The translations under genes and the position numbers were made by a program. Source: Bacteroidota bacterium (GTDB taxonomy: Bacteria; Bacteroidota; Ignavibacteria; Ignavibacteriales; Ignavibacteriaceae). Taken from it: DNA of 64,000 nt. The notes under the pieces are model-generated. The model was given only the letters and a program-made list of their open reading frames with translations, did no database searches and was not told the origin of the DNA. The stretch covers positions 124,001-188,000 of the forward strand of contig JADFLR010000001.1 in NCBI GenBank assembly GCA_022564295.1. Reading direction: 5' to 3'. Positions 3,776-21,278 of the stretch are shown here, one piece after another; position 1 is the stretch's first letter, and each line of letters opens with the position of its first letter.

Positions 3776-4780
3776 ATGCTAATTCAATCTGATTTAACAG
3801 AACTCACAAAAGGAAATATTATTGATCATTTTTTGATGATTGGAAAAATTGAGATTAGAAATACCAAAGCGGGGAAAAAGTTTCTCTCAATGGAATTAGG
3901 AGATAAATCGGGCAGTATTAATACAAATGTTTGGAACGATACAGCCGGATTTGATAGTATTGCAGATAATGGTAAGGTTGGAGATATAATAAAAGTTTTG
4001 GGGAGTATTGATGAGTTTCAGGGAGTACCACAAATTAAAGTAACTTCAATCAGGTTAAACATTCCAGCAGATAATGTCGAAGTTCAGGATTTCTTACCAC
4101 GATCTGCAAGAGACCCCGAAGTAATGAAAAAGGAGCTGCTTGTGCGCATTGAAGAGATCTCAAACACTCACCTTAAGGAACTGCTTAAAAATATTTTTTC
4201 GGGGGAACGGATGGAAAAATTTAAGACTGCACCCGCCGGAAAATCCTGGCATCACGGATATATTCATGGTTTAATTGAACACACCTTGGAGATGATTAAA
4301 ATTTGTGATTTAATGTGCGATTTTCATCCAGCGATCAACAGAGATTTATTAGCAGCGGGCGCAATACTGCACGATTTCGGGAAAACCGAGGAACTATCTT
4401 ATGATTCGTCTTTCAATTACAGCGATAAAGGAAAATTGATTGGGCATATTGTTATTTGTGCTTCGATGATTGAAGAAGAGACAAAAAAGTTAACGGATTT
4501 TCCCGAGGGACTTAAAAATTTACTTATACATCTAATATTAAGCCATCAGGGAAAACTTGAGTATGCATCCCCCGTTGTTCCCAAAACGGTGGAAGCAATT
4601 GCACTTTATCAGGCAGATGAATTAAGTGCAAAAGTAAATGCGTATGTTGGTGTTATAAATTCTGATATGACAATCGAAGGCAATTGGACAAAGTTTATTC
4701 ATCTTGCACAAACTGATCTTTATAAATATAATTTATCAGAAGAATCTGAAAAAAAAATTAACAAGTCACTTTTTGATTAA
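3776..4780 (+). CDS. YhaM-like 3'-5' exoribonuclease (OB fold + HD domain)
   Basis: The N-terminal 95 residues form an OB fold (GKKFLSMELGDKSGSINTNVW, with GDIIKVLGSIDEFQG) that binds nucleic acid. An HD phosphohydrolase domain follows with metal-binding motifs HHGYIHGLIEHT and AGAILHDFGKTEEL, and later HLILSHQGKLEY. This order and the length of 334 aa match Bacillus YhaM/Cbf1, a 3'-to-5' exoribonuclease with some DNase activity. The metal-binding His and Asp residues are all present. It precedes the TPR gene by about 18 bases with the same orientation, so co-transcription is possible. The alternative is a generic HD-domain phosphohydrolase, but the OB-HD combination makes this unlikely. Confidence 0.85.
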   Translation: MLIQSDLTELTKGNIIDHFLMIGKIEIRNTKAGKKFLSMELGDKSGSINTNVWNDTAGFDSIADNGKVGDIIKVLGSIDEFQGVPQIKVTSIRLNIPADNVEVQDFLPRSARDPEVMKKELLVRIEEISNTHLKELLKNIFSGERMEKFKTAPAGKSWHHGYIHGLIEHTLEMIKICDLMCDFHPAINRDLLAAGAILHDFGKTEELSYDSSFNYSDKGKLIGHIVICASMIEEETKKLTDFPEGLKNLLIHLILSHQGKLEYASPVVPKTVEAIALYQADELSAKVNAYVGVINSDMTIEGNWTKFIHLAQTDLYKYNLSEESEKKINKSLFD

Positions 4781-4798
4781 ATTATTAAGGAGAGGATT

Positions 4799-5587
4799 AT
4801 AAAACAAGTTTTTACAAAACTTACTTTTGCATCACTGTTCGTTATTTTCGGTTCTTATGTGAATGCTCAATCTTTGGAAGAGTTAATGCAGGAAGGAGAT
4901 AATTATTATAAAAAGTTTAACCATCGGAGTGCCTTAGAAACTTATTCAAAAGCCGACAGTTTATATCAAGGAAATTGGGTTTTAATGTGGAAGATAAGCA
5001 GAGCTTATGTTGATTTAGCAGAAAAAATGTCACAGGATACCGAAGAAGAAGAAGATTCGAAAAAATTAGAATTTGAAAAAGCATTGATTTATGCTGATAG
5101 CTCGGTTAAGCTTGCACCCGGTGAAGCAGATGCGTATGTAACAAGAGCTATTGCCAGCGGAAAAATTGCACTATTAGAAGGAATATTTTCTGCTATCGGA
5201 TCAGTGAATGATGTAAGGGATGATTCTGAACATGCAATTGAACTCGGTAACGGCGGAAGTTACACACAAGCACTTGCACATTATATTTTAGGAAGAGCAC
5301 ATTATAAAGTTTGTGAAAAACCGTATTTGCTTCGTCTTCCAATAGGATTAGGTTGGGGCGATATGGAAGATTCTATCCGCGAACTTGAAATGGCTGTAAA
5401 ACTCAGACCCAATTTTAGAATGTTCTATCTTGCTCTTGCTAAATCTTATTTTGAAGAAAGTGAATACGAAAAAGCAAAAGAAACACTTACACAGCTTGAA
5501 AGTGCTCCTTTTGTTGACGAAGATGACGATCAGGTTTTAGATGAAGCGAAAGAACTAATAATAAAGGTGGATGAAGAATTAGAATAA
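4799..5587 (+). CDS. Exported TPR protein with a probable non-ATG (ATA) start
   Basis: A tetratricopeptide protein with repeats at about residues 25-60, 95-130 and 185-245 (for example SALETYSKADSLY and REL..AVKLRPNFRMFYLALA). The first conventional start in frame is GTG at 4859, but the frame stays open upstream. There it encodes a good signal peptide, KQVFTKLTFASLFVIFGS then YVNAQ, with cleavage likely after NA. A strong Shine-Dalgarno AAGGAGAGG at 4787-4795 sits just before ATT (4796) and ATA (4799). No ATG, GTG or TTG lies between, so the probable start is ATA, one base from ATG. The stop overlaps the sirtuin start (TAATG), suggesting translational coupling. Function unknown; probably periplasmic. 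Confidence 0.75.
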   Translation: MKQVFTKLTFASLFVIFGSYVNAQSLEELMQEGDNYYKKFNHRSALETYSKADSLYQGNWVLMWKISRAYVDLAEKMSQDTEEEEDSKKLEFEKALIYADSSVKLAPGEADAYVTRAIASGKIALLEGIFSAIGSVNDVRDDSEHAIELGNGGSYTQALAHYILGRAHYKVCEKPYLLRLPIGLGWGDMEDSIRELEMAVKLRPNFRMFYLALAKSYFEESEYEKAKETLTQLESAPFVDEDDDQVLDEAKELIIKVDEELE

Positions 5588-10382: not shown

Positions 10383-11621
10383 TCAGTTTAAATTCGTTTT
10401 TAGCAATTCTTCTATCATTGTAACTTTCTCAGTTGCATCAATATCAGAATAATAATGTAAAGATTTTTGCAGCCAATCTGTTTTCCCACTCTCATTACCG
10501 ATTTCACCACTAAGCAACCCCAATTCAAAAGATGTTTCCGCAATATTCTGCTCATTTTTTAAACTTGTATTCATCCTCAGACTGTTTAGCAGGTAAGTTT
10601 CTGCATCATTGTAGTTTTCCCTGCGTCTCTCTATTATTCCTTTTACCCTGTATATATCTGCAGATGTTAGTTTATCATCAGTGCTATTGCTCATATCTAA
10701 AGCTTTATCGGCAAATTCTGAAGCATAGTAAAGGTCATCCGTTGCAATCAGTACCTGTGATTTAGCAAGATAAATAATACATAAGATGGACATAAAGCGG
10801 CCTTGCTTAGCGATCTCAATCCCTTCATCAAAAGTTGCAAGTGCCGATTCATAATCTGCTGACTCGAGATACACCATACCAATATTAAGCTTTGTTTCTG
10901 CAATACGCCTGTTATTTCCGAGTTTATTATAACTTACTAAAGCGTTTGTCAGGTGTTTTATCGAATCATCCGTATTCCCCCGAATATTATCTATTATTCC
11001 CAGGTTCGTATCCAGGTTAGCGGCTAATTCCAAATCATTGTCAGGATTAATCAGAGACAGACTATTAAGGAAATAGTCTTTCGCCTTCGTTAAATTTCCA
11101 CGCTCTCCGTAAATTGAACCCAATAAGTTTTCACATTTTGCCTGACCGCTATTATCATTTAATTCTCTGTACAACGATCCGACTTCTTCAATTGTTTTTA
11201 AACTTCTCTTCCAATTAGCTCTTCTGCTAAAAACATCAGCCAACCCCAGCAGAGATTCTGCCTTATGTAAAATTTTACTGCTATGAGTTTGTACCTTCCG
11301 GAATATTTCGTTAGCAAGATTTAATCTGCCGCCTGAAAGACAAAGCTGACCAAGATCTAACAAAAATTCATAGAAGTTATTTGGCTGTAATGTTTTTTCT
11401 GAAAAAGTAATTGATCTGTCAATTTTAATTCGTTCACTATAATTATTATTTTCTATCTGTAACTGATTCAGATAAAAATCATTAATCGTTCCGGGAATTT
11501 TGTTATTTCCTTCTTTAGGCGGATTAATGTTCAGATTCAAATGATTTAACTCGCCATCTCCAAGATATTGTTCCAGAAGTCCGTCGAGTTCTTTTTCAAA
11601 ATTATTTACTAAGCTATCCAT
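10383..11621 (-). CDS. Cytoplasmic TPR protein, copy A of a duplicated module
   Basis: A 412-residue soluble protein with no signal peptide. After a 110-residue N-terminal region (MDSLVNNFEKELDGLLEQYL ...), about seven tetratricopeptide repeats follow; examples are CENLLGSIYGERGNLTKAKD and LNIGMVYLESADYESALATF. TPR proteins of this type are usually protein-interaction scaffolds. It is the last gene of a seven-gene minus-strand cluster and lies 20 bases after an identical lipoprotein pair member. Copy B (14169-15407) is almost identical over residues 1-362. The last ~45 residues differ completely in sequence, though both still look like a final helical pair. No known function. Confidence 0.75.
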   Translation of the reverse strand: MDSLVNNFEKELDGLLEQYLGDGELNHLNLNINPPKEGNNKIPGTINDFYLNQLQIENNNYSERIKIDRSITFSEKTLQPNNFYEFLLDLGQLCLSGGRLNLANEIFRKVQTHSSKILHKAESLLGLADVFSRRANWKRSLKTIEEVGSLYRELNDNSGQAKCENLLGSIYGERGNLTKAKDYFLNSLSLINPDNDLELAANLDTNLGIIDNIRGNTDDSIKHLTNALVSYNKLGNNRRIAETKLNIGMVYLESADYESALATFDEGIEIAKQGRFMSILCIIYLAKSQVLIATDDLYYASEFADKALDMSNSTDDKLTSADIYRVKGIIERRRENYNDAETYLLNSLRMNTSLKNEQNIAETSFELGLLSGEIGNESGKTDWLQKSLHYYSDIDATEKVTMIEELLKTNLN

Positions 11622-12240
11622 TTTTATACATTAAATAAAATTAGTTAACAAATCCATATCTTGAGAAATGATCTAGTTTTGCCTTATTCACCCAAATTGT
11701 ACCCTGGGCTTCATTCACGTGAAGAGAATTATAAGTCACTTCTCCTGTTGTACCGTCATCATCGATAAAAACAAAATCATAATCTACGGTTGTGAGATCT
11801 ATCCCTTCAAATGTCAGATCAAGTATTAATGGCTTGTCAAAAACCATTGCTGGGGTAAATGAAACATCAGCAAATTCATCATCTACTGTTAGAGTGATAG
11901 TAGCATCACCAACATAGGAATGTCTTCTAACTTTTAAATTTACATAGATACTAACAGTATGCCCGTCTTCTGCAACATAACTTTCATATAAATATATATT
12001 TCCACCAACAGTTCCGTTAATGGTTTTGGTTATAGAGAATGAGGTTTCGACGGACATTCCCGACTTTTTAGGAAGTTTTATAAATTGATATGAATGATTA
12101 TCATCCATGATAGGGGAAATTGGAGTATCCGCGCAGCCAAGAAGAAATAAGGCTGAAAGCAACAAAGTGGTTAAAGTGATTTTCATTGTTTTTATCCTTT
12201 TTTTAGGTTATAGTAAAATTTATTTAATATTCAATTTCAA
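10535..12240. repeat. Near-identical 1.7-kb segment, partner of 14321-16026
   Basis: Comparison of this stretch with 14321-16026 (offset exactly 3786 bases) shows near identity. It covers most of the 412-aa TPR gene, the complete 181-aa lipoprotein gene (one base difference noticed) and the gap to the next gene. Identity ends abruptly at 10535/14321 inside the TPR gene and weakens inside the 204-aa lipoprotein gene. This indicates recent duplication or gene conversion. Confidence 0.85.
11641..12186 (-). CDS. 181-aa lipoprotein with ZU5-like beta domain, copy A
   Basis: Signal sequence MKITLTTLLLSALFLLGC ends in a lipobox (LLGC, Cys18), so the mature protein is a lipid-anchored envelope protein. 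The remainder is beta-rich. Its pattern GGNIYL ... DATITLTV ... VFDKPLILDLTFEGIDL ... IWVNKAKLDHFSRYGF resembles the ZU5-like domains of Bacteroidota lipoproteins, which end in HFSRY. It is identical at the protein level to the copy at 15427-15972. It sits between the 204-aa lipoprotein and the TPR gene on the same strand with short gaps, so it is probably co-transcribed. Function unknown. Confidence 0.75.
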   Translation of the reverse strand: MKITLTTLLLSALFLLGCADTPISPIMDDNHSYQFIKLPKKSGMSVETSFSITKTINGTVGGNIYLYESYVAEDGHTVSIYVNLKVRRHSYVGDATITLTVDDEFADVSFTPAMVFDKPLILDLTFEGIDLTTVDYDFVFIDDDGTTGEVTYNSLHVNEAQGTIWVNKAKLDHFSRYGFVN

Positions 12241-12241
12241 T

Positions 12242-12856
12242 TTATCTTGTAAAGCCATATCGTGCACCGCCAGGAGTTTCGTCTGTAGGCACAATAATTT
12301 CCGCTTTCTTGACTTTAAGCCTATTTAGATTACTATACAGTTTTAAGGTCTGGTTTCCTGTTTCCAGTATATCAGAGTTATCTCCTACGTAAATAAAACC
12401 AAATGTATCAGGATCGATCAGTGAAACATCAATTCCCTCAAGTGTCCAATCTATCCGAATGTGCTTTAGTAATGTACTTGGTGATGGGGTAATATTAAGA
12501 AAAGCATAATCCGGATCCAGGGTTATAGTAAAAAGTCTGTTCTCTTGATCGGGGAAGGATTCTTTTTCTACAAATACTCTAATGTGAGATTCGTAATCAC
12601 CCAATTCATTTCCTGGTCTTGGGATTATAACATTAAGACTTATCATTCCGCCATTGTAACCATTTATCATTTTGCTCGATGAATAAGTAGTTTCAATAGA
12701 GGAACCGCTCCCAAGATCAGTAGGAAGTTTAACCCAATTGGGGGAATTTGATTGTTGTGTGATTTGTGCTTCGGGTGAAGTTAGTAGGGATGAATCATCC
12801 GCACATCCAACCAGAAAAAGTGCTGAAAGTAGCAAAGTGGTTAGTGTGGTTTTCAT
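12242..12856 (-). CDS. 204-aa lipoprotein, copy A
   Basis: A lipoprotein with signal MKTTLTTLLLSALFLVGC (lipobox LVGC, Cys18) and a mature beta-rich domain. The leader and the C-terminus (GGARYGFTR) are nearly identical to the paralog at 16028-16642, while the central 120 residues differ at roughly a third of positions. It shares the terminal RYGF motif and the GGxI ... EGID pattern with the 181-aa lipoprotein, so the two are probably distant relatives with a ZU5-like fold. First gene of the downstream copy of the module; ATG at 12856 follows a GGAG-type ribosome-binding site. Function unknown. Confidence 0.72.
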   Translation of the reverse strand: MKTTLTTLLLSALFLVGCADDSSLLTSPEAQITQQSNSPNWVKLPTDLGSGSSIETTYSSSKMINGYNGGMISLNVIIPRPGNELGDYESHIRVFVEKESFPDQENRLFTITLDPDYAFLNITPSPSTLLKHIRIDWTLEGIDVSLIDPDTFGFIYVGDNSDILETGNQTLKLYSNLNRLKVKKAEIIVPTDETPGGARYGFTR

Positions 12857-12906
12857 TTTTACTCCGTTGTATATTAATTATTAATATTGATTAAAATTAT
12901 TTAAGT

Positions 12907-14142
12907 TTATTTTTTGACTAGTTTAGCAGCAATATCTTCATCTTTAATTTCTTTGTAATAACTAACTGCGGAATCGAGATAGGGTTTCGCCTCTTCTTCT
13001 CTTTCGTTTTTTTGAAGAAGTTTTCCCAATTCTGCTGAACTTTCAGCCGCATTTAGTTTATTTTCCAGATCTTTATTCAATCTTATACTGTTTTCAAAAA
13101 ATTCTTCAGAAAGCTGGAAATTGTCCATCTCGGTATGAATCATTCCTTTAATCTTATATATATCTGCTATTGATAATGTGTCATTTATCTTATAAGCAAT
13201 TTCCATTGCTTTATCAGTATATGCATCAGCCAGTGCAGAGTTTTTAAGTTTGGTATAGATAAATGCTTTACCGACATATGCAACAGCACAATTAGAAAGG
13301 TAATCATTATCCAATGAGTGGCTAATACATTTATTAAATTCATCTAATGCCGCATCATATTTCCCCATCCTTGTATATAACATTCCAATGTTATGATAAA
13401 CCCGCGATAAACGCCGTGTATCATTCAGACTTTCAAACTTTTCTATTGAGGTTTTGTAATTCCAGACTGCTTTTTCAAAATCTCCGTTAATAGTATTAAT
13501 AATTCCTAAATTAGTTAGGATCATTGCACGGGATGATAAGTCATCATCTTCTTTTAAATGTTTTAAAGCATTTTCAAGATATTGCTGTGCCTTTTCAAAC
13601 TCCCCTTTTTCTCCGTAAAGAGTACCTAACATATTCTCGCATTTTGCAATACCAGCCTCACTTGAAATAGAAAGAAATAATTGCATAGCTTTCGAAACAT
13701 AGTAGCTGCAATCATCCCAAATTGCCTGAGACCAGTAAATTTTGGAGACCATAAGATTAGCTTCTGCTAGAACAGAAACATATTTATTATCAAAGTTAAG
13801 TTTACTAAGTAGATCATCTGCTATTTCAAGTGAAAAAGAAACTTCTCCTGAATGAAGCATTAACTGTGAAAGATCCAGCAGTAAATTGTAAAATCTCTCC
13901 TCCGGCAGATCATTTTCACAATGAGTTATCATCTTATCAACCATTATACGATGATCTATTCCCTTAGGAACTTCATATTCTACCTGCGATTTTTCTAATT
14001 CATTGAAATCTGACTCTTCATTATTATATGCAAAACTATCCTCCTGGAGCTTTTTAATAAATTCCCTGGAAGATGCTTCCGTCATATAATCATCAAGTAA
14101 ATTTTTTAGATCCTTAACTATATTTGTATTATTATTTTTCAT
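12907..14142 (-). CDS. Cytoplasmic TPR protein, single-copy paralog between the duplicated units
   Basis: A 411-residue TPR protein with the same architecture as its two 412-aa neighbours: a short helical N-terminus (NIVKDLKNLLDDYMTEASS), an intermediate region, then repeats such as CENMLGTLYGEKGEFEKAQQ and HNIGMLYTRMGKYDAALDEF. No signal peptide or membrane segment. It aligns with the neighbours throughout but is clearly diverged, so it represents an older duplication. It lies 26 bases downstream of copy B and 50 bases upstream of lipoprotein copy A, all on the minus strand. Likely a scaffold working with the lipoprotein genes, but this is inference from context only. Confidence 0.75.
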   Translation of the reverse strand: MKNNNTNIVKDLKNLLDDYMTEASSREFIKKLQEDSFAYNNEESDFNELEKSQVEYEVPKGIDHRIMVDKMITHCENDLPEERFYNLLLDLSQLMLHSGEVSFSLEIADDLLSKLNFDNKYVSVLAEANLMVSKIYWSQAIWDDCSYYVSKAMQLFLSISSEAGIAKCENMLGTLYGEKGEFEKAQQYLENALKHLKEDDDLSSRAMILTNLGIINTINGDFEKAVWNYKTSIEKFESLNDTRRLSRVYHNIGMLYTRMGKYDAALDEFNKCISHSLDNDYLSNCAVAYVGKAFIYTKLKNSALADAYTDKAMEIAYKINDTLSIADIYKIKGMIHTEMDNFQLSEEFFENSIRLNKDLENKLNAAESSAELGKLLQKNEREEEAKPYLDSAVSYYKEIKDEDIAAKLVKK

Positions 14143-14168
14143 GATAGTCTCTTTATAACAAATTTTGA

Positions 14169-15407
14169 TTAAGTTGTTCCGATAATCAGCATATCTTCAA
14201 TTTTTTTAACTTTTTTGAAAGCATTTATTTGCTTAAAATAATTAAGTGCACTTGTTAAGTATGAGTTTTTAGATTGAGAATTATTTTTTTCTTGATATAG
14301 AACTGCAAGTTCGATGGAAGTTTCCGCAATATTCTGCTCATTTTTTAAACTTGTATTCATCCTCAGACTGTTTAGCAGGTAAGTTTCTGCATCATTGTAG
14401 TTTTTCCTGCGTCTCTCTATTATTCCTTTTACCCTGTAAATATCTGCGGATGTTAGTTTATCATCAGTGCTATTGCTCATATCTAAAGCTTTATCGGCGA
14501 ATTCTGAAGCATAGTAAAGGTCATCCGTTGCAATCAGTACCTGTGATTTAGCAAGATAAATAATACATAAGATGGACATAAAGCGGCCTTGCTTAGCGAT
14601 CTCAATCCCTTCATCAAAAGTTGCAAGTGCCGATTCATAATCTGCTGACTCGAGATACACCATACCAATATTGAGCTTTGTTTCTGCAATACGCCTGTTA
14701 TTACCAAGTTTATTATAACTTACTAAAGCGTTTGTCAGGTGTTTTATCGAATCATCCGTATTCCCCTGAATATTATCTATTATTCCTAAGTTCGTATCCA
14801 GGTTGGCGGCTAATTCCAGATCATTTTCAGGATTAATCAGAGACAGACTATTAAGGAAATAGTCTTTCGCCTTCGCTAAATCTCCACGTTCTCCATAAAT
14901 CGAGCCCAGTAAGTTTTCACATTTTGCCAGACCGCTATTATCATTTAATTCTCTGTACAACGATCCGGCTTCTTCAATTGTTCTTAAACTTCTCTGCCAA
15001 TTAGCTCTTCTGCTAAAAACATCTGCCAACCCCAATAGAGATTCTGCCTTGTGCAAAGTTTTACTGCTGCGAGTTTTTACCTTCCGGAATATTTCGTTGG
15101 CAAAATTTAATCTGCCGCCCGAAAGACAAAGCTGACCAAGATCTAACAAAAATTCATAGAAGTTATTTGGCTGTAATGTTTTTTCTGAAAAAGTAATTGA
15201 TCTGTCAATTTTAATTCGTTCACTATAATTATTATTTTCTATCTGTAACTGATTCAGATAAAAATCATTAATCGTTCCGGGAATTTTGTTATTTCCTTCT
15301 TTAGGCGGATTAATGTTCAGATTCAAATGATTTAACTCGCCATCTCCAAGATATTGTTCCAGAAGTCCGTCGAGTTCTTTTTCAAAATTATTTACTAAGC
15401 TATCCAT
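14169..15407 (-). CDS. Cytoplasmic TPR protein, copy B of a duplicated module
   Basis: Paralog of the protein at 10383-11621, nearly identical over residues 1-362. The N-terminus is the same (MDSLVNNFEKELDGLLEQYL) with a few substitutions (for example QRSLRTIEEAG for KRSLKTIEEVG). The last 45 residues are different (IELAVLYQEKNNSQ ...). The switch falls exactly at the DNA identity boundary 14321, so the C-terminal cap was exchanged or has escaped homogenisation. Soluble, TPR-only, with no catalytic domain. It follows the identical lipoprotein at 15427-15972 by 19 bases. Confidence 0.75.
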   Translation of the reverse strand: MDSLVNNFEKELDGLLEQYLGDGELNHLNLNINPPKEGNNKIPGTINDFYLNQLQIENNNYSERIKIDRSITFSEKTLQPNNFYEFLLDLGQLCLSGGRLNFANEIFRKVKTRSSKTLHKAESLLGLADVFSRRANWQRSLRTIEEAGSLYRELNDNSGLAKCENLLGSIYGERGDLAKAKDYFLNSLSLINPENDLELAANLDTNLGIIDNIQGNTDDSIKHLTNALVSYNKLGNNRRIAETKLNIGMVYLESADYESALATFDEGIEIAKQGRFMSILCIIYLAKSQVLIATDDLYYASEFADKALDMSNSTDDKLTSADIYRVKGIIERRRKNYNDAETYLLNSLRMNTSLKNEQNIAETSIELAVLYQEKNNSQSKNSYLTSALNYFKQINAFKKVKKIEDMLIIGTT

Positions 15408-15426
15408 TTTTATACATTAAATAAAA

Positions 15427-15972
15427 TTAGTTAACAAATCCATATCTTGAGAAATGATCTAGTTTTGCCTTATTCACCCAAATTGTACCCTGGGCTTCAT
15501 TCACGTGAAGAGAATTATAAGTCACTTCTCCTGTTGTACCGTCATCATCGATAAAAACAAAATCATAATCTACGGTTGTGAGATCTATCCCTTCAAATGT
15601 CAGATCAAGTATTAATGGCTTGTCAAAAACCATTGCTGGGGTAAATGAAACATCAGCAAATTCATCATCTACTGTTAGAGTGATAGTAGCATCACCAACA
15701 TAGGAATGTCTTCTAACTTTTAAATTTACATAGATACTAACAGTATGCCCGTCTTCTGCAACATAACTTTCATATAAATATATATTTCCACCAACAGTTC
15801 CGTTAATGGTTTTGGTTATAGAGAATGAGGTTTCGACGGACATTCCCGACTTTTTAGGAAGTTTTATAAATTGATATGAATGATTATCATCCATGATAGG
15901 GGAAATTGGAGTATCCGCGCAACCAAGAAGAAATAAGGCTGAAAGCAACAAAGTGGTTAAAGTGATTTTCAT
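15427..15972 (-). CDS. 181-aa lipoprotein with ZU5-like beta domain, copy B
   Basis: Identical in amino-acid sequence to the lipoprotein at 11641-12186; the only base change I noticed is silent (GCGCAGCC versus GCGCAACC in the leader). It has the LLGC lipobox and the terminal DHFSRYGFVN. The 55-base gap to the 204-aa gene is also conserved between copies. Perfect protein conservation in a family whose neighbours differ suggests very recent conversion or strong constraint. Function unknown. Confidence 0.75.
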   Translation of the reverse strand: MKITLTTLLLSALFLLGCADTPISPIMDDNHSYQFIKLPKKSGMSVETSFSITKTINGTVGGNIYLYESYVAEDGHTVSIYVNLKVRRHSYVGDATITLTVDDEFADVSFTPAMVFDKPLILDLTFEGIDLTTVDYDFVFIDDDGTTGEVTYNSLHVNEAQGTIWVNKAKLDHFSRYGFVN

Positions 15973-16027
15973 TGTTTTTATCCTTTTTTTAGGTTATAGT
16001 AAAATTTATTTAATATTCAATTTCAAT

Positions 16028-16642
16028 TTATCTTGTAAAGCCATATCGTGCACCGCCAGATGTTTCGTATGTAGGCACAATAATTTCAGCATCTTTTATT
16101 TTAATCCAATCTGCATTACTATTCAACTGAAGAACCTGATTTTCTGTTTCCAGAATCTGATCATTATCATCAACGTAGATAAAACCAAATATATCAGTAT
16201 CAATTTCGGATACATCAATCCCTTCGATCTTAAAATCAACTATTAACTGTTTTTCAAGTGTATTGGGAGAGGGTGAAATATAGAGCAGAGAGTACTCAGG
16301 ATCTAAAGCTATGGTAAACAATCTTTGTTCCTGATCGGGGAAAGAATGATCCTGCACCTGTACTTTAACATGTATTTCAAAATCACCTAATTGATTACCT
16401 GGACGAGGTATGACGACATCCAGTCTAATTATTCCACCATTCTCACCTGTAATAAATTTTTCAGTAGAGAATAATGTTTCAACTGAAGGACCCCGACGAA
16501 TATCAGATGGAAGTTTAACCCAATTTGGTGAAGTTGATTGTTGTGTGATTTGTGCTTCGGGTGAAGTTAGTAGGGATGAATCATCCGCACATCCAACCAG
16601 AAAAAGTGCTGAAAGCAACAGTATGGTTAATGTGATTCTCAT
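16028..16642 (-). CDS. 204-aa lipoprotein, copy B; first gene of the seven-gene cluster
   Basis: Lipoprotein with leader MRITLTILLLSALFLVGC (lipobox LVGC), C-terminus GGARYGFTR and a beta-rich middle. Compared with the copy at 12242-12856, the first 45 and last 15 residues are almost unchanged, while the middle carries many substitutions (for example FSTEKFITGENGG versus YSSSKMINGYNGG). This gene is the 5'-most of the minus-strand cluster, so the cluster promoter should lie in 16643-17300, although no obvious promoter is visible there. Function unknown. Confidence 0.72.
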   Translation of the reverse strand: MRITLTILLLSALFLVGCADDSSLLTSPEAQITQQSTSPNWVKLPSDIRRGPSVETLFSTEKFITGENGGIIRLDVVIPRPGNQLGDFEIHVKVQVQDHSFPDQEQRLFTIALDPEYSLLYISPSPNTLEKQLIVDFKIEGIDVSEIDTDIFGFIYVDDNDQILETENQVLQLNSNADWIKIKDAEIIVPTYETSGGARYGFTR

Positions 16643-17301
16643 TTTTACTCCAGGATATTATGAATACTTTAATTACTTAGTTGAAATAGTCTAAGTCGAG
16701 CATCCATCTTATCAAAGAGCGCTAACAGGAATTTATATTTTTTACTCCTATTTGCAGTTCCTGTTATACAAGGGCAATGCCATTGTTAGTTAGCGATTAA
16801 AGTTCGTTTTTTTGTATAAAATCAACGATATCTCCAAATATAGAATGATATTAAATGTATTTAAATAAAAATGTGTCCCGAAGAGAAGCACTAAAACTGG
16901 TGTAATTAAGTGATATCCCACTCCGTTTTTTGTAATGGAAAAGTAATTCACGACCCGAAGTAAATATTTAAGAAAACAAACAAAAGAATATAATTAGAAA
17001 TGTTAAATATTGATTAAGCTGAATCAATAAAACCACGCCATATTCAAAATTATTGCAGTAAGATTTTAAGAATTAAGTATAAAAACTATTTTTTGGTTAA
17101 TGCATTTGATCCGATGATTTTTAAATGACCATTGTTGATTTTTAACTTTTTATTTGCAAGAACTTAAATCGGAATTTTTCATAACCTTTTATGGAAAATG
17201 ATAAATCAATATTGATACTCTTCAAATTGTATTAACCTTATTTTATTTGCATTTAAATAATTATTCTCTAAATTTAACAATTAGCAAAATGTCTTAATCG
17301 C
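16643..17301. other. Gene-free region upstream of the lipoprotein/TPR cluster
   Basis: No coding frame is convincing here. The only clear structure is the nested inverted repeat at 16720-16795. The rest is very AT-rich and probably holds the promoter of the minus-strand lipoprotein/TPR cluster. No sigma-54 type or other recognisable promoter motif was found on that strand. Confidence 0.5.
16720..16795. repeat. Nested inverted repeat
   Basis: Two sets of arms overlap. TAACAGGAA at 16723-16731 pairs with TTCCTGTTA at 16758-16766, and CGCTAAC at 16720-16726 pairs alternatively with GTTAGCG at 16789-16795. A small GGCAATGCC-type hairpin lies inside (about 16773-16781). The alternative pairings could form two exclusive structures in RNA or a cruciform in DNA. 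It lies about 80 bases upstream of the first lipoprotein gene. Confidence 0.55.
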
Positions 17302-17505: not shown

Positions 17506-18516
17506 TTACTCCCACCAACTTAGTATTCTAAATCTTGATGATTTCAAATTCATTTGTGCATTTGAAATTGCCTGGCTGCTGTAATAAAATGCCGAATTTC
17601 CGGTTGCCTGAATATCCACATTATCACCGACCAATATAGTGGAGCCATAAACTCCACCGTTGCCAACAATATTTGTTTCAATAGAGGACTGTCCATAAAC
17701 TATTAATATACCGTAGTATGTAAACTGCCCGCTCATAGTAACGTTTCCATTTATAACCATTATACCACTTCCGGTAGCTGTTCCGGAAAAATGAACATCA
17801 CCATTTACAAAAGTAATTTTTGGTTCAGCAAAAGTTCCTAATACCGTTCCACTTGCGTAAGTTCCGGAATGCAGAGTGTAATCAGCAGAAAAAATTAGAT
17901 TTTCTGTTACTTCATCCCAGTCAGTAGTATCAGCCACAGTATGAACACTTGGGGAGCCGCCTAACCCATTAATGTCATTTGCTATTTTAGGTTTTAATTC
18001 ATCAACCACATAAGCGCTGTCGCCCGGGTCATCAACAGCTATGCCCGGTAACGAAGGATTAGGACCCGGAGAGTCATCTATATTCCTGTCGTTTCCGTCA
18101 ATGTCAAGGTTCCCTTTTAGATTAACATCAAGATTAGTTGATGAAATATACAAAGCGCCCTTCACAGGAGGAACGATCGCTTTTTCTCTTGCAGCAGTTA
18201 CAATTACCTGATAATTAGTATTTCCGAAATGACCGGTTGATGTGATGGTCATTTGTGAATCCGGACCGGTTATCGAAAGGTCATATTCTCCATCCATCAA
18301 ACCAATATCAGAGAATGTACCGGTTAGAGTTTTATTTCTCCTCAATTTTTCTAAATATATCTCAACACCGGAGTTAGCAATAATTCTTGCCTGAGTTAAT
18401 TCGTAGTAATCAACTGTTGTTTTTAATCCTTGCTTAGAATTAGCATTCAGTTTCAATATAAGAAATGCAGTAATTACAGAAACTCCTAAAACTATTATAA
18501 TTATTCCTCTACCCAT
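17506..18516 (-). CDS. PilX-like minor pilin / pseudopilin (third gene of operon)
   Basis: A 336-residue protein with one N-terminal hydrophobic helix (GIIIIVLGVSVITAFLILKL, residues 4-23). A PilX_N-like stretch YYELTQARIIANSGVEIYLEKLRRN follows, as in minor pilins and GspK-type pseudopilins. The rest is a beta-rich extracellular domain with repeated GNVTMSGQF and GNGGVYGSTILVGDN strands, resembling a beta-solenoid. Gly4 before the helix could be a prepilin peptidase site, but there is no Glu at +5, as also seen in K-type pseudopilins. It is one base from the preceding gene, so tightly co-transcribed. No pilus assembly ATPase or prepilin peptidase is in the window. Confidence 0.65.
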   Translation of the reverse strand: MGRGIIIIVLGVSVITAFLILKLNANSKQGLKTTVDYYELTQARIIANSGVEIYLEKLRRNKTLTGTFSDIGLMDGEYDLSITGPDSQMTITSTGHFGNTNYQVIVTAAREKAIVPPVKGALYISSTNLDVNLKGNLDIDGNDRNIDDSPGPNPSLPGIAVDDPGDSAYVVDELKPKIANDINGLGGSPSVHTVADTTDWDEVTENLIFSADYTLHSGTYASGTVLGTFAEPKITFVNGDVHFSGTATGSGIMVINGNVTMSGQFTYYGILIVYGQSSIETNIVGNGGVYGSTILVGDNVDIQATGNSAFYYSSQAISNAQMNLKSSRFRILSWWE

Positions 18517-18517
18517 T

Positions 18518-19066
18518 TTATAAATTCCTCGGATTAATTGTTATTTCCCAATAAGTAAACGGATGTCCGCCATCAACCGGTTCAATTGTTTCAATCCAGA
18601 GTTCAGCTTTCACATATTGTATTTCTGAAAGAGTTGTGGTCGCAACACCTGATCCGTTGAAGTAAGAAAATTTAGCTTTTGTTAAGCCAAGAGATGGTCC
18701 TTTAATAGTATCGCTGTCTACTATCCTGTAAAGAATCCTGTCTCTTGGGTTTGTTGTTCCAGATACTTCTGTAGTATCACCAAGCATATAAGTTACAAGT
18801 TCGATGGTTCCGTCTCTGTCAATATCAGAATAAAATGAAATCCGTTCTGAGTCTGCTTCTACAAATGCAGTATTATCATAACGGTAACCTATTTTTCTAA
18901 AATCGTGGTTAAGAATCTCTGCAAGTGTCTTCGCATTTTGCTGAAGCTGAAGTTCTGAATCGGACGAAATTATAGAGTTGCTTTGGAATACATTGAAGTT
19001 GATTAACATTGATAATATTAAACCACCAATTATTGTTGAACCCATTAAATCTAGTATAATATTCAT
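18518..19066 (-). CDS. PilW-like minor pilin / pseudopilin (second gene of operon)
   Basis: A 182-residue protein with an N-terminal helix (MNIILDLMG then STIIGGLILSMLINFNVF). The following segment LQLQQNAKTLAEILNHDFRKIGYRYDN is characteristic of PilW/GspJ-like minor pilins, where the long helix runs into a D-x-R-x-x-GYR motif. A beta domain follows, with FVEADSERISFYSDIDRDG and ITINPRNL at the end. Gly9 could be the -1 residue of a class III signal, but Glu +5 is absent (Gly). Gaps of 3 and 1 bases join it to its neighbours. Assigned from pattern, not from overall similarity. Confidence 0.65.
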   Translation of the reverse strand: MNIILDLMGSTIIGGLILSMLINFNVFQSNSIISSDSELQLQQNAKTLAEILNHDFRKIGYRYDNTAFVEADSERISFYSDIDRDGTIELVTYMLGDTTEVSGTTNPRDRILYRIVDSDTIKGPSLGLTKAKFSYFNGSGVATTTLSEIQYVKAELWIETIEPVDGGHPFTYWEITINPRNL

Positions 19067-19069
19067 AGC

Positions 19070-19555
19070 TTACTTTAATGTAAAAATGTGAGATAATTGA
19101 ATTGGATTTCTTAAATAAGGACTGCTTACTGTTACAGTAACTTTTTTGTAAAATGTTTGAGTCCAAACAATTGTATCAGGGTTATCACCGTCAACATACC
19201 AAACAGCACAGGTTATCTGATAATTTTCTGCGTGCGGTGCAGATACAGTTTGAACAAAACCATTGAAGTCATCAATATCATTATAATCAGGATAAGTTTC
19301 CCACCAACCATGTCCAAGGTTAAAAGCGCCGGTGAGAATAGATGGGTCCGTGGTAGGAAAATTAATTGTTGCTGCATCAAAGGCTTTTTGTTTTATTTCC
19401 TCTATCAAATCATCTGCGAGCGAGAAGGCAGTTAAATATACTTTGTTCTCTACTTCAACAGTAGTGTTTGATAAAACTGATGAGTTGAAGTTTAGAGATA
19501 CTAATGAGAATAATAATAACGCGCCTATGCTTAAAAATGATTGTCCGGTGTTCAT
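19070..19555 (-). CDS. PilV-like minor pilin / pseudopilin (first gene of operon)
   Basis: A 161-residue protein starting MNTG-QSFLSIGALLLFSLVSL, a hydrophobic helix preceded by Gly4. SLADDLIEEIKQKAFDAA matches the conserved helix of PilV/GspI-type minor pilins (usually LAxxLIEEI). The C-terminal half is a beta domain (NYQITCAVWYVDGDN ... KKVTVTVSSPYL). As with the other two genes, a Gly precedes the helix but the usual Glu +5 is missing (Ser). First gene of the operon; a consensus sigma-54 promoter lies 51-66 bases upstream of its ATG. Confidence 0.65.
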   Translation of the reverse strand: MNTGQSFLSIGALLLFSLVSLNFNSSVLSNTTVEVENKVYLTAFSLADDLIEEIKQKAFDAATINFPTTDPSILTGAFNLGHGWWETYPDYNDIDDFNGFVQTVSAPHAENYQITCAVWYVDGDNPDTIVWTQTFYKKVTVTVSSPYLRNPIQLSHIFTLK

Positions 19556-19605: not shown

Positions 19606-19621
19606 TGCAATTTCGCTGCCA
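19606..19621 (-). promoter_or_regulatory. Sigma-54 promoter of the pilin-like operon
   Basis: The minus strand reads TGGCAGCGAAATTGCA. It has the invariant GG of the -24 box and GC of the -12 box with the required 10-base spacing (consensus TGGCAC-N5-TTGCW). Transcription would start about 12 bases past the GC, near 19595, giving a 5' leader of about 40 bases before the first pilin-like gene. An NtrC-family activator gene lies directly upstream. Confidence 0.8.
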
Positions 19622-19742: not shown

Positions 19743-21113
19743 TTATTTTGTTTTGTCTCGTATAATTTTCAATCTCCTCTGTAAGGTTCTTTCACTTATG
19801 CCCAAAATTGGAGCAGTTTTTTGAACACTGTTACCCATCATTTTCATAACGTACATAATATGTTCTTCTAATGCATCTTCTAGCGAAGTAAGTTTCCCAG
19901 TATCCGTTGACCATTGCTTATCGCTATGTACAGCAGCCGGAAGATCAATGGTATCTATATATTGGCTGTTCGAAGTTTTAGCCACAGCATTAAATATAAT
20001 GTTTTCAAGTTCTCTTACATTTCCGGGGAAGGAGTATGTTCTCAGATCATTCACAACGTCTTCCGAAAAACCAAGAATATTCCGGTTATAAATTTTATTG
20101 CCTGTTTCCAGAAAATGATCTGCAAGAATGAGAACATCATCACCTCGTTTTCTTAATGGCGGTATATGAATGAATCCTCTGTTTAAACGGTAATAAAGAT
20201 CTGCACGAAATTCCTTTCTATTAACCGCATCTAACAAATTTCGGTTTGTAGCAGAAATTATTCTTATATCAAGATTGATTGGTTTAGGATCGCCTAATCT
20301 CATTATCTCATTATATTGTATGGTCCTTAGTAGTTTGCCTTGAAGCTCTAAAGGAAGTTCGCCAATTTCATCGAGAAAGATTGTACCATTTTGAGCTGCT
20401 TCAAAATAACCCATCTTATCATTTCCTGCGCCTGTAAACGTTCCTTTTTTATGCCCGAACAATTCACTTTCAAATAAACTTGGTGAAATAGATGCAAGGT
20501 TAACAGCAATAAAAGGTCCCTGATGCCTCGGCGATAGATCGTGGATTTTTCTTGCCAGCAAATCTTTACCGGTTCCGGTTTCTCCCGAAATTAAAACTGT
20601 TTCGTTTGTTGGCGCAAAAATTTCAACCAGTTCAAAAACTTTGAACATTGCGGGAGAGTCAGTAATAATATCTGAAAAAACTTTCTGTTCGGGCTTCTCA
20701 TCGCTTAGCGCTTTTCTTAAAGAATCTCTTTCGGTCTCAAGAAGCCGTTTTCCTAAAGCTCTTTTTATTGTTAGAAATAATCTGTCCGTATCCGGCGGTT
20801 TTGTAATGAATTCATAAGCCCCAAGTTTTATAGCTTTAAGTGCAACTTCAACTTCGTTAACTGCAGTAATGATTATAACCGGAATATTAGGGAATTGAGC
20901 ATAAATTTCCTCAAGTAAATCCAACCCGCTTTTTTGAGGCATATAAACATCGAGTAGAATAAGTTCAATATTCTTTTGTTCGATGATAGATATTACTTTC
21001 AATGGGTTTTCTTCAGTAATTACGTTTTGATATCCTTCCTGCTCCAATAAACCTTTCATTAATTCCAGGTAGGATATTTCATCATCTACAATTAATATTG
21101 AATTACTTAACAT
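19743..21113 (-). CDS. NtrC-family sigma-54 response regulator, probable activator of the pilin-like operon
   Basis: Three domains in about 456 residues. A receiver carries phospho-acceptor Asp55 in LLDVYMPQKSG and acidic pair DDE at 10-12. The AAA+ sigma-54 interaction domain has Walker A GETGTGKD and the loop GTFTGA, a Thr variant of GAFTGA. A Fis-type helix-turn-helix ends the protein (QKTAPILGISERTLQRRLK). ATG at 21113 is preceded by GGAGG at the right distance and is chosen over the longer in-frame start at 21143. It sits directly upstream of the pilin-like genes and their sigma-54 promoter, the same logic as PilR and pilA. No cognate kinase is adjacent. Confidence 0.9.
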   Translation of the reverse strand: MLSNSILIVDDEISYLELMKGLLEQEGYQNVITEENPLKVISIIEQKNIELILLDVYMPQKSGLDLLEEIYAQFPNIPVIIITAVNEVEVALKAIKLGAYEFITKPPDTDRLFLTIKRALGKRLLETERDSLRKALSDEKPEQKVFSDIITDSPAMFKVFELVEIFAPTNETVLISGETGTGKDLLARKIHDLSPRHQGPFIAVNLASISPSLFESELFGHKKGTFTGAGNDKMGYFEAAQNGTIFLDEIGELPLELQGKLLRTIQYNEIMRLGDPKPINLDIRIISATNRNLLDAVNRKEFRADLYYRLNRGFIHIPPLRKRGDDVLILADHFLETGNKIYNRNILGFSEDVVNDLRTYSFPGNVRELENIIFNAVAKTSNSQYIDTIDLPAAVHSDKQWSTDTGKLTSLEDALEEHIMYVMKMMGNSVQKTAPILGISERTLQRRLKIIRDKTK

Positions 21114-21278
21114 ATATTGCCTCCGTGTAAAATTTGTGTACAAAGATAAGTATTATTTTTTTAATGGTTAATAGATTGATCGATTTTGAAGGATAAAATA
21201 TTAAGAGGCAAAAACCAAGACTTTTTATTATTTTCAACGAAGTTAATTTTAAATTTATTTAAAGTTTAAGGATAAAAA

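Follow-up and report, generated by a model that had tools for sequence, protein, structure and literature searches.

Tetratricopeptide repeat (TPR) proteins that sense imported peptide pheromones in the cytosol have been described in Bacillota and in their phages. In the enterococcal sex pheromone systems, the source of the pheromone is the signal peptide of a lipoprotein, import proceeds through Opp, and the receptor is the TPR-type protein PrgX. Phage Rap proteins with tandem pheromone propeptides are also known (PMC11343458), and a large-scale survey of RRNPP systems covered Firmicutes genomes only (PMC10075063). Our literature search, which did not cover subscription journals or preprints, found no prior description of sigma-54/TPR systems or peptide quorum sensing in Ignavibacteria, nor of RRNPP signalling in Gram-negative bacteria. 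Here we analyzed a 64,000-nucleotide stretch of the genome of a member of the Ignavibacteriaceae (assembly GCA_022564295.1, contig JADFLR010000001.1, positions 124,001 to 188,000; hereafter the window), which carries at 10383-16642 an array of genes for TPR proteins and for two types of small lipoprotein, lipo204 and lipo181, of a family that we call LIPO. The evidence points to a Gram-negative analogue of the known systems in Ignavibacteria: the window locus is probably the response arm of a quorum-sensing-like system based on a secreted peptide, with a mode of action like that of the Gram-positive RRNPP type.

A peptide shared by lipoproteins and secreted repeat proteins

We read the system as secreted-peptide communication because its lipoproteins end in a peptide that a secreted repeat protein carries in tandem. 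In the window's own genome (G000; other G numbers denote genomes, L numbers loci), contig C6 encodes a tandem-repeat secreted protein of 161 aa (L166:15515-16000, + strand), with five units SSSQLEELGARYGFTR ending in GARYGFTR and a sixth ending in GSRYAWSR (last copy SRYAWSR). GARYGFTR is also the exact C-terminus (last eight residues) of both lipo204 proteins of the window, encoded at 16031..16054 (-) in copy 1, which ends GGARYGFTR, and at 12245..12268 (-) in copy 2, and of both paralogues on contig C39. Nearly all LIPO members carry HFSRY[G/A/I][F/W]x[N/K/R] at their end, in many cases as the last residues of the protein. The C-terminus of lipo181 is HFSRYGFVN (SRYGFVN codons, with HF just before, at 15430..15450 (-) in copy 1 and at 11644..11664 (-) in copy 2, the latter noted as a candidate HF|S self-cleavage site). 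The repeat and LIPO heptapeptides are the same in G000, G005, G009 and G035. Thus, G035 carries SRYIFAK in 16 repeats and a LIPO C-terminus HFSRYIFAK, and the SRYGWTR repeats of G005 are matched by a LIPO containing HFSRYGWTR. In the genome of L127 and L068, the repeats read SRFGFIK and two LIPO contain HFSRFGFIK. The two peptides are one residue apart in G018 (repeats SRYAFSR, LIPO SRYAFCR) and in G002 (SRYGFSR and SRYGWSR). The own-genome pairing of repeat and LIPO peptides was the best of 40320 permutations, with one tie, between two genomes whose repeats (SVYGYSK and SSYGYSK) match their own LIPO poorly.

Only the terminal heptapeptide or octapeptide, and not the whole repeat unit, is common to LIPO and the repeat protein. 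GARYGFTR is encoded by different codons in the repeat gene and in lipo204, and serine is encoded by AGY in the repeats and by TCN in LIPO, two unconnected codon boxes, so the identity lies at the peptide level. Recent gene conversion was considered as the origin of the identical peptides; these differing codons, together with the differing flanks, rule against it.

Ten further loci have the repeat protein right after, or one gene from, the sigma-54 activator, including those of LIPO-less G006 and G023, whose repeat peptides are SKYGWVR and GRFGWTK, respectively. The repeat gene adjoins the TPR gene in L149, is one short open reading frame (ORF) away in L147 and one large gene away in L127 and L154; in the other loci it lies beside the sigma-54 activator. 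The sequence of the signalling peptide can thus be predicted for each of the eleven loci, and the system as a whole also offers a predicted importer, candidate receptors and promoters as a read-out. In several genomes, repeat proteins of the C6 type also share a conserved RYRV segment near the mature N-terminus. Four genomes have a large, probably secreted protein encoded after the repeat gene (L127:6206-9859 and ORFs of ~1210 aa in L179, L180 and L181); the L127 member has no Pfam match, and the protein is a candidate processing factor or partner.

The earlier note on this DNA had proposed that the lipoproteins and TPR proteins belong together, and its suggested co-occurrence check bears this out. 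In 54 loci from relatives and from the window genome, picked for holding the LIPO or TPR family, 52 of the 60 LIPO genes are followed on the same strand by a TPR gene, mostly directly. Among 59 related genomes, the TPR family occurs in 32 and LIPO in 28; LIPO is found in 28 of the 32 genomes with TPR and in none of the 27 without (Fisher p ~1e-12, phylogeny not accounted for). An iterated LIPO profile drifted to 230-aa lipoproteins beside C5-type TPR genes, which a stricter profile left out. The order kinase-sigma54-LIPO-TPR, often with OppC, is also present in other families of the class, outside the order. Downstream of the LIPO-TPR pair of L133, a HAMP histidine kinase and a sigma-54 response regulator are followed by ExbB-ExbD-ExbD-TonB-like genes (by eye; L133:14849-17391).

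The neighbors of LIPO-TPR genes include OppA (SBP_bac_5, an oligopeptide-type binding protein), OppB and OppC, as well as a Ser/Thr kinase with AAA and TPR regions, a sigma-54 activator and histidine kinases. OppA is present in all 32 genomes with TPR and, among the 27 others, strongly in 2 and weakly in 2 more (Fisher p ~1e-12). Nearly all these genomes have a single OppA gene. In 16 of the 32 genomes with TPR it is no more than 12 kb from LIPO or TPR, and it mostly belongs to an OppABC-Ser/Thr kinase-sigma54 activator cluster. On contig C6 of the window genome, the order is divergent ABC ATPases, OppA, OppB, OppC, Ser/Thr kinase-TPR, sigma-54 activator and secreted repeat protein. From the co-occurrence and adjacency of OppA we infer that Opp imports the peptide.

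Modelled folds and sigma-54 promoter motifs

The AlphaFold2 model of TPR_B, one of the TPR proteins of the window (predicted local distance difference test, pLDDT, 90; matches over residues 7-401), resembles known peptide receptors. In VIA comparisons, its top match was APPBP2 with a degron peptide (Z 31), closely followed by Rap with its pheromone (Z 30.6) and RapF with an inhibitory peptide (Z 30.5), and then by MalT (Z 28.4), NprR (26.2) and AimR (23.7). The likeness to the Rap-type superhelix is one of fold alone, and APPBP2 and APC/C subunits score as high. In Pfam and NCBIfam, the TPR proteins match generic TPR families or distant TPR proteins, and no Rap, NprR or AimR family model. Residues N170, N211 and K292 are invariant in 52 TPR sequences, and the concave positions of helix A show higher conservation than the non-signature positions taken together (p 0.007). 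The TPR proteins or the kinase may bind the peptide. The physical scaffold across the membrane entertained in the earlier note finds no support here; the shared peptide, the Opp importer and the Rap-like receptor fold point elsewhere.

The LIPO model (pLDDT 89) is a ZU5/GAIN-type sandwich. Its residues 45-181 match the ZU5 domain of ankyrin-B (Z 10.5), UNC5b (8.2) and the GAIN domain of BAI3 (8.2) in VIA. Foldseek alone gave weak matches and no clear fold, Pfam and NCBIfam searches of LIPO matched nothing useful, the Pfam matches listed for 51 LIPO members at E<=1 include no ZU5 model, and a LIPO profile run against the sequences of solved structures matched mostly lipoprotein leaders. The description of these proteins as ZU5-like in the earlier note holds at the level of the modelled fold and not at that of Pfam family membership. 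HFS sits between the last two strands of the model, the last strand being the shared peptide, and H173, F174 and S175 are nearly invariant in the 51 LIPO. An FS motif (HF|S) is the self-cleavage site of PIDD, NUP98 and NLRP1 (PMC8081665), and an autopeptidase role has been proposed for ZU5 domains of bacteria (PMC3482391). This suggests that LIPO may likewise cleave itself at HF|S.

Sigma-54 motifs connect these genes at the level of transcription. A sigma-54 type promoter motif, TGGCATTGCCCTTGTA, lies at 16767..16782 (-), ~140 nt upstream of the first lipo204 gene. It is one of 12 exact matches to TGGCAYN5TTGYW in the 4.07 Mb genome, where a reversed-pattern control also gave 12; four of the 12 are at the four loci of the LIPO-TPR family and the rest near a mixed set of genes. 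Over the whole window, patterns with one mismatch were no commoner than chance. A -24/-12 site scoring at least 14, a score reached by ~1% of shuffled sequences, is found upstream of 19 of 40 LIPO genes and of 7 of 215 other genes in the same loci (p 2e-12), and upstream of 9 of the 24 TPR genes that are preceded by a gap (p 2e-6 against the same 7 of 215). The best sites are near-perfect (TGGCACGGACATTGCA), and the median distance to the start codon is 68 nt. Each of the 11 repeat genes is preceded by a sigma-54-like site, at a distance of 65-120 nt. The window genome encodes rpoN (C2) and a sigma-54 activator (C6), so that motif, sigma factor and activator are all present at the sequence level. 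The earlier suggestions of a sensing function and of roles in one regulon gain support from these promoter motifs.

The array in the window

The seven minus-strand genes that had been reported for the array were all found as ORFs with the coordinates and lengths claimed: lipo204 copy 1 (16028..16642 (-), 204 aa, ZU5-type family), lipo181 copy 1 (15427..15972 (-), 181 aa), TPR_A copy 1 (14169..15407 (-), 412 aa), TPR_B (12907..14142 (-), 411 aa, the modelled receptor-like protein), lipo204 copy 2 (12242..12856 (-)), lipo181 copy 2 (11641..12186 (-)) and TPR_A copy 2 (10383..11621 (-)). The order lipo204-lipo181-TPR, a further TPR gene and lipo204-lipo181-TPR again is likewise as described, and the offset between the copies is exactly 3786. 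A lipobox is present in lipo204 and lipo181 alike (..LFLLGCAD / ..LFLVGCAD), and visual inspection of the TPR proteins showed no signal peptide. Between the copies, the lipo181 protein is unchanged, whereas the lipo204 proteins are 69% identical. At the offset of 3786, DNA identity is 90-100% over ~10563-12300 (most of TPR_A, lipo181 and the spacer), whereas in mid-lipo204 (12303-12720 vs 16089-16506) it is only 55-72%, with flanks above 90%; similarity rises again over the lipo204 5' end and is gone below 10503, in the last TPR_A codons. Such mosaic identity is consistent with an older tandem duplication whose copies recombination has partly evened out, or with a recent one in which segments were replaced.

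In a tree of 73 TPR proteins, TPR_B belongs to a separate supported clade with the second TPR genes of LIPO-TPR-TPR clusters in other Ignavibacteriaceae and in Melioribacteraceae, and both TPR_A (TPR412) proteins of the window group with the first TPR genes. The extra TPR gene singled out in the earlier note is thus real and no oddity, since TPR_B follows TPR_A in relatives too. The window accordingly holds LIPO-LIPO-TPR_A-TPR_B plus a second LIPO-LIPO-TPR_A, the unit being LIPO(n)-TPR_A-TPR_B, and the array represents an Ignavibacteria module in expanded form rather than a stray duplication.

Further copies of the families in this genome are a LIPO-TPR locus on C39, a lone TPR gene on C5 and a LIPO fragment on C56. 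On C39 (L020), two lipo204-type genes flank the gene of a STAS-like protein of the anti-sigma antagonist type (136 aa, by eye, 4683-5093), with a PAS histidine kinase gene nearby. The C56 fragment, 71 aa long and with the leader of the family, directly precedes a pseudopilin-like cluster (L022, 5493-8034), whose genes of 164, 199 and 404 aa resemble three pseudopilin-like genes of the window (161, 182 and 336 aa). The latter and an adjoining gene for an NtrC-type sigma-54 response regulator occupy 17506-19555 (-) and 19743-21143 (-), and a sigma-54-like site, TGGCAGCGAAATTGCA, at 19606-19621 lies upstream of the 161-aa gene. A partnership between LIPO and pseudopilins was considered and rejected: such genes adjoin LIPO in the window genome (C13, C56), and no such cluster recurs in the loci of relatives.

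Proposed mechanism and comparison with known systems

The simplest account of these data would be RRNPP-like peptide signalling, with the LIPO-TPR operons as part of its regulon. A small secreted protein with 4-16 tandem 16-residue units ending in [S/A]RY[G/A/I][F/W]x[R/K], of which the gene, the repeats and the signal peptide are seen in the sequence, would be exported and then processed to heptapeptides. Import of the peptide would fall to the OppABC permease, the genes of which are seen to precede the repeat gene and to co-occur with the family. In the cytoplasm, the peptide would bind the Rap-like TPR proteins and/or the TPR part of the Opp-linked Ser/Thr kinase-AAA-TPR protein, as their fold similarity suggests, and binding would control the sigma-54 activator whose gene accompanies that of the kinase. 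Sigma-54 polymerase would in turn transcribe the repeat-peptide gene, as feedback, and the LIPO-TPR operons including that of the window, at the motifs seen upstream of both. LIPO itself would most likely be a lipid-anchored ZU5-type sandwich with the shared peptide as its last strand, and would either release the peptide as a second source, by self-cleavage at HF|S as in NUP98, PIDD and GAIN proteins, or display or capture it at the envelope. A more specific form of this mechanism, a self-cleaving lipoprotein pheromone, is put forward tentatively, as we think it doubtful: LIPO would cut at HF|S and free a C-terminal heptapeptide (SRYGFVN type) identical or nearly identical to the repeat-propeptide product, which after re-import by Opp would act on the Rap-like TPR receptors and the Ser/Thr kinase to drive sigma-54 transcription in Gram-negative bacteria. 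The lipoprotein signal peptide as pheromone, in the enterococcal style, is disfavored, as the part in common with the secreted repeat protein is the C-terminus.

Several observations weigh against RRNPP-like signalling. Binding, processing, import and transcription are all predicted from sequence and models. Heptapeptides are close to the largest size that can cross an outer membrane passively. Rap-like and generic TPR superhelices are alike, the best VIA match being a eukaryotic degron receptor, and the conservation of the groove is modest (p 0.007), other helix-A positions being equally conserved. The co-occurrence statistics take no account of phylogeny, and OppA of G030 stands outside any cluster of the kind described. 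The repeat peptides of G008 and L154, SVYGYSK and SSYGYSK, are clearly unlike LIPO ends, and lipo204 keeps the peptide without the HFS motif. Finally, the repeat gene and the LIPO-TPR loci of the window genome are on separate contigs, and many loci with LIPO-TPR directly after the sigma-54 activator showed no repeat gene.

Three other explanations were weighed against the same data. LIPO could be a receptor or decoy, in which, after cleavage at HF|S, free secreted peptide displaces the last strand by strand exchange, so that LIPO reports or buffers the peptide at the envelope and the TPR proteins have a separate role. This would account for the last strand of the ZU5/GAIN-type model being the shared peptide, for the covariation of the LIPO peptide with the repeat peptide of the same genome, and for lipo204 keeping the peptide without HFS. 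However, the fragments of eukaryotic ZU5/GAIN proteins stay tightly bound after cleavage, and most LIPO-TPR loci have no repeat gene nearby, and we regard this explanation as unlikely. We are slightly more skeptical of a secreted structural or amyloid-like matrix, with the repeat protein as matrix protein, LIPO as a surface anchor or nucleator carrying its unit, the TPR proteins as assembly or regulatory helpers, and Opp as incidental. Tandem 16-residue units and a lipoprotein with the same motif do resemble nucleator/subunit pairs, but it is the terminal heptapeptide or octapeptide alone that LIPO shares, and both the peptide-receptor-like TPR fold and the co-occurrence and adjacency of the usually single OppA with TPR and LIPO would be left unexplained.

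The least probable of the alternatives, in our assessment, is that the LIPO-TPR operons form an ordinary sigma-54 regulon for envelope stress or nutrients, that Opp imports nutrient peptides or another solute, and that the C-terminal motif is a sorting or processing tag for an export or protease machine. Many loci do have sigma-54 activators and histidine kinases at their flanks, and sorting tags are typically short conserved C-termini. A universal tag should nevertheless be constant, whereas the heptamer differs between genomes and matches within them, and a single protein can contain up to 16 copies of it.

Compared with the RRNPP(A) and Rap-Phr systems of Bacillota, the RRNPP-like system proposed here is alike in its secreted propeptide with repeated short peptides, its oligopeptide permease and its cytosolic TPR protein, which also has an N-terminal helical part and a Rap-like superhelix. 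A partial likeness to Rap-Phr is that the repeat gene adjoins the TPR gene in L149 and lies close to one in L147, L127 and L154. In contrast to RRNPP systems, the hosts are Gram-negative Ignavibacteria, the TPR protein has no helix-turn-helix domain and no Rap, NprR or AimR family match, the output is tied to a Ser/Thr kinase and a sigma-54 activator, and a lipid-anchored ZU5-type protein likewise ends in the peptide. Because of the missing Rap family match and the different output, we do not file the system as a member of Rap-Phr. Enterococcal pheromones with Opp and PrgX are similar in having a lipoprotein gene as peptide source, Opp import and a TPR-type receptor, but there the peptide is the signal peptide, whereas in Ignavibacteria the shared peptide is the C-terminus.

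With the ZU5/GAIN/NUP98 autoproteolytic superfamily (PIDD, the FIIND of NLRP1, the GAIN domain of adhesion GPCRs), LIPO has in common the modelled fold and HF-S between the last two strands. Unlike these proteins, LIPO are stand-alone lipoproteins of ~180-200 aa with just ~7 residues past the putative cut; they have no Pfam ZU5 match, lipo204 has no HFS, and cleavage is predicted. The exact match between a lipoprotein C-terminus and a repeat peptide in one genome gives a strong clue, open to falsification, to what an unannotated protein family does, and the predicted signal is open to direct trial with synthetic heptapeptides. The statement in the earlier note that no described system matches holds for the assembly as a whole, and less so for its parts, as the receptor fold, the importer and the repeated propeptide resemble RRNPP signalling; the possible new element is a ZU5-type lipoprotein that carries the pheromone.

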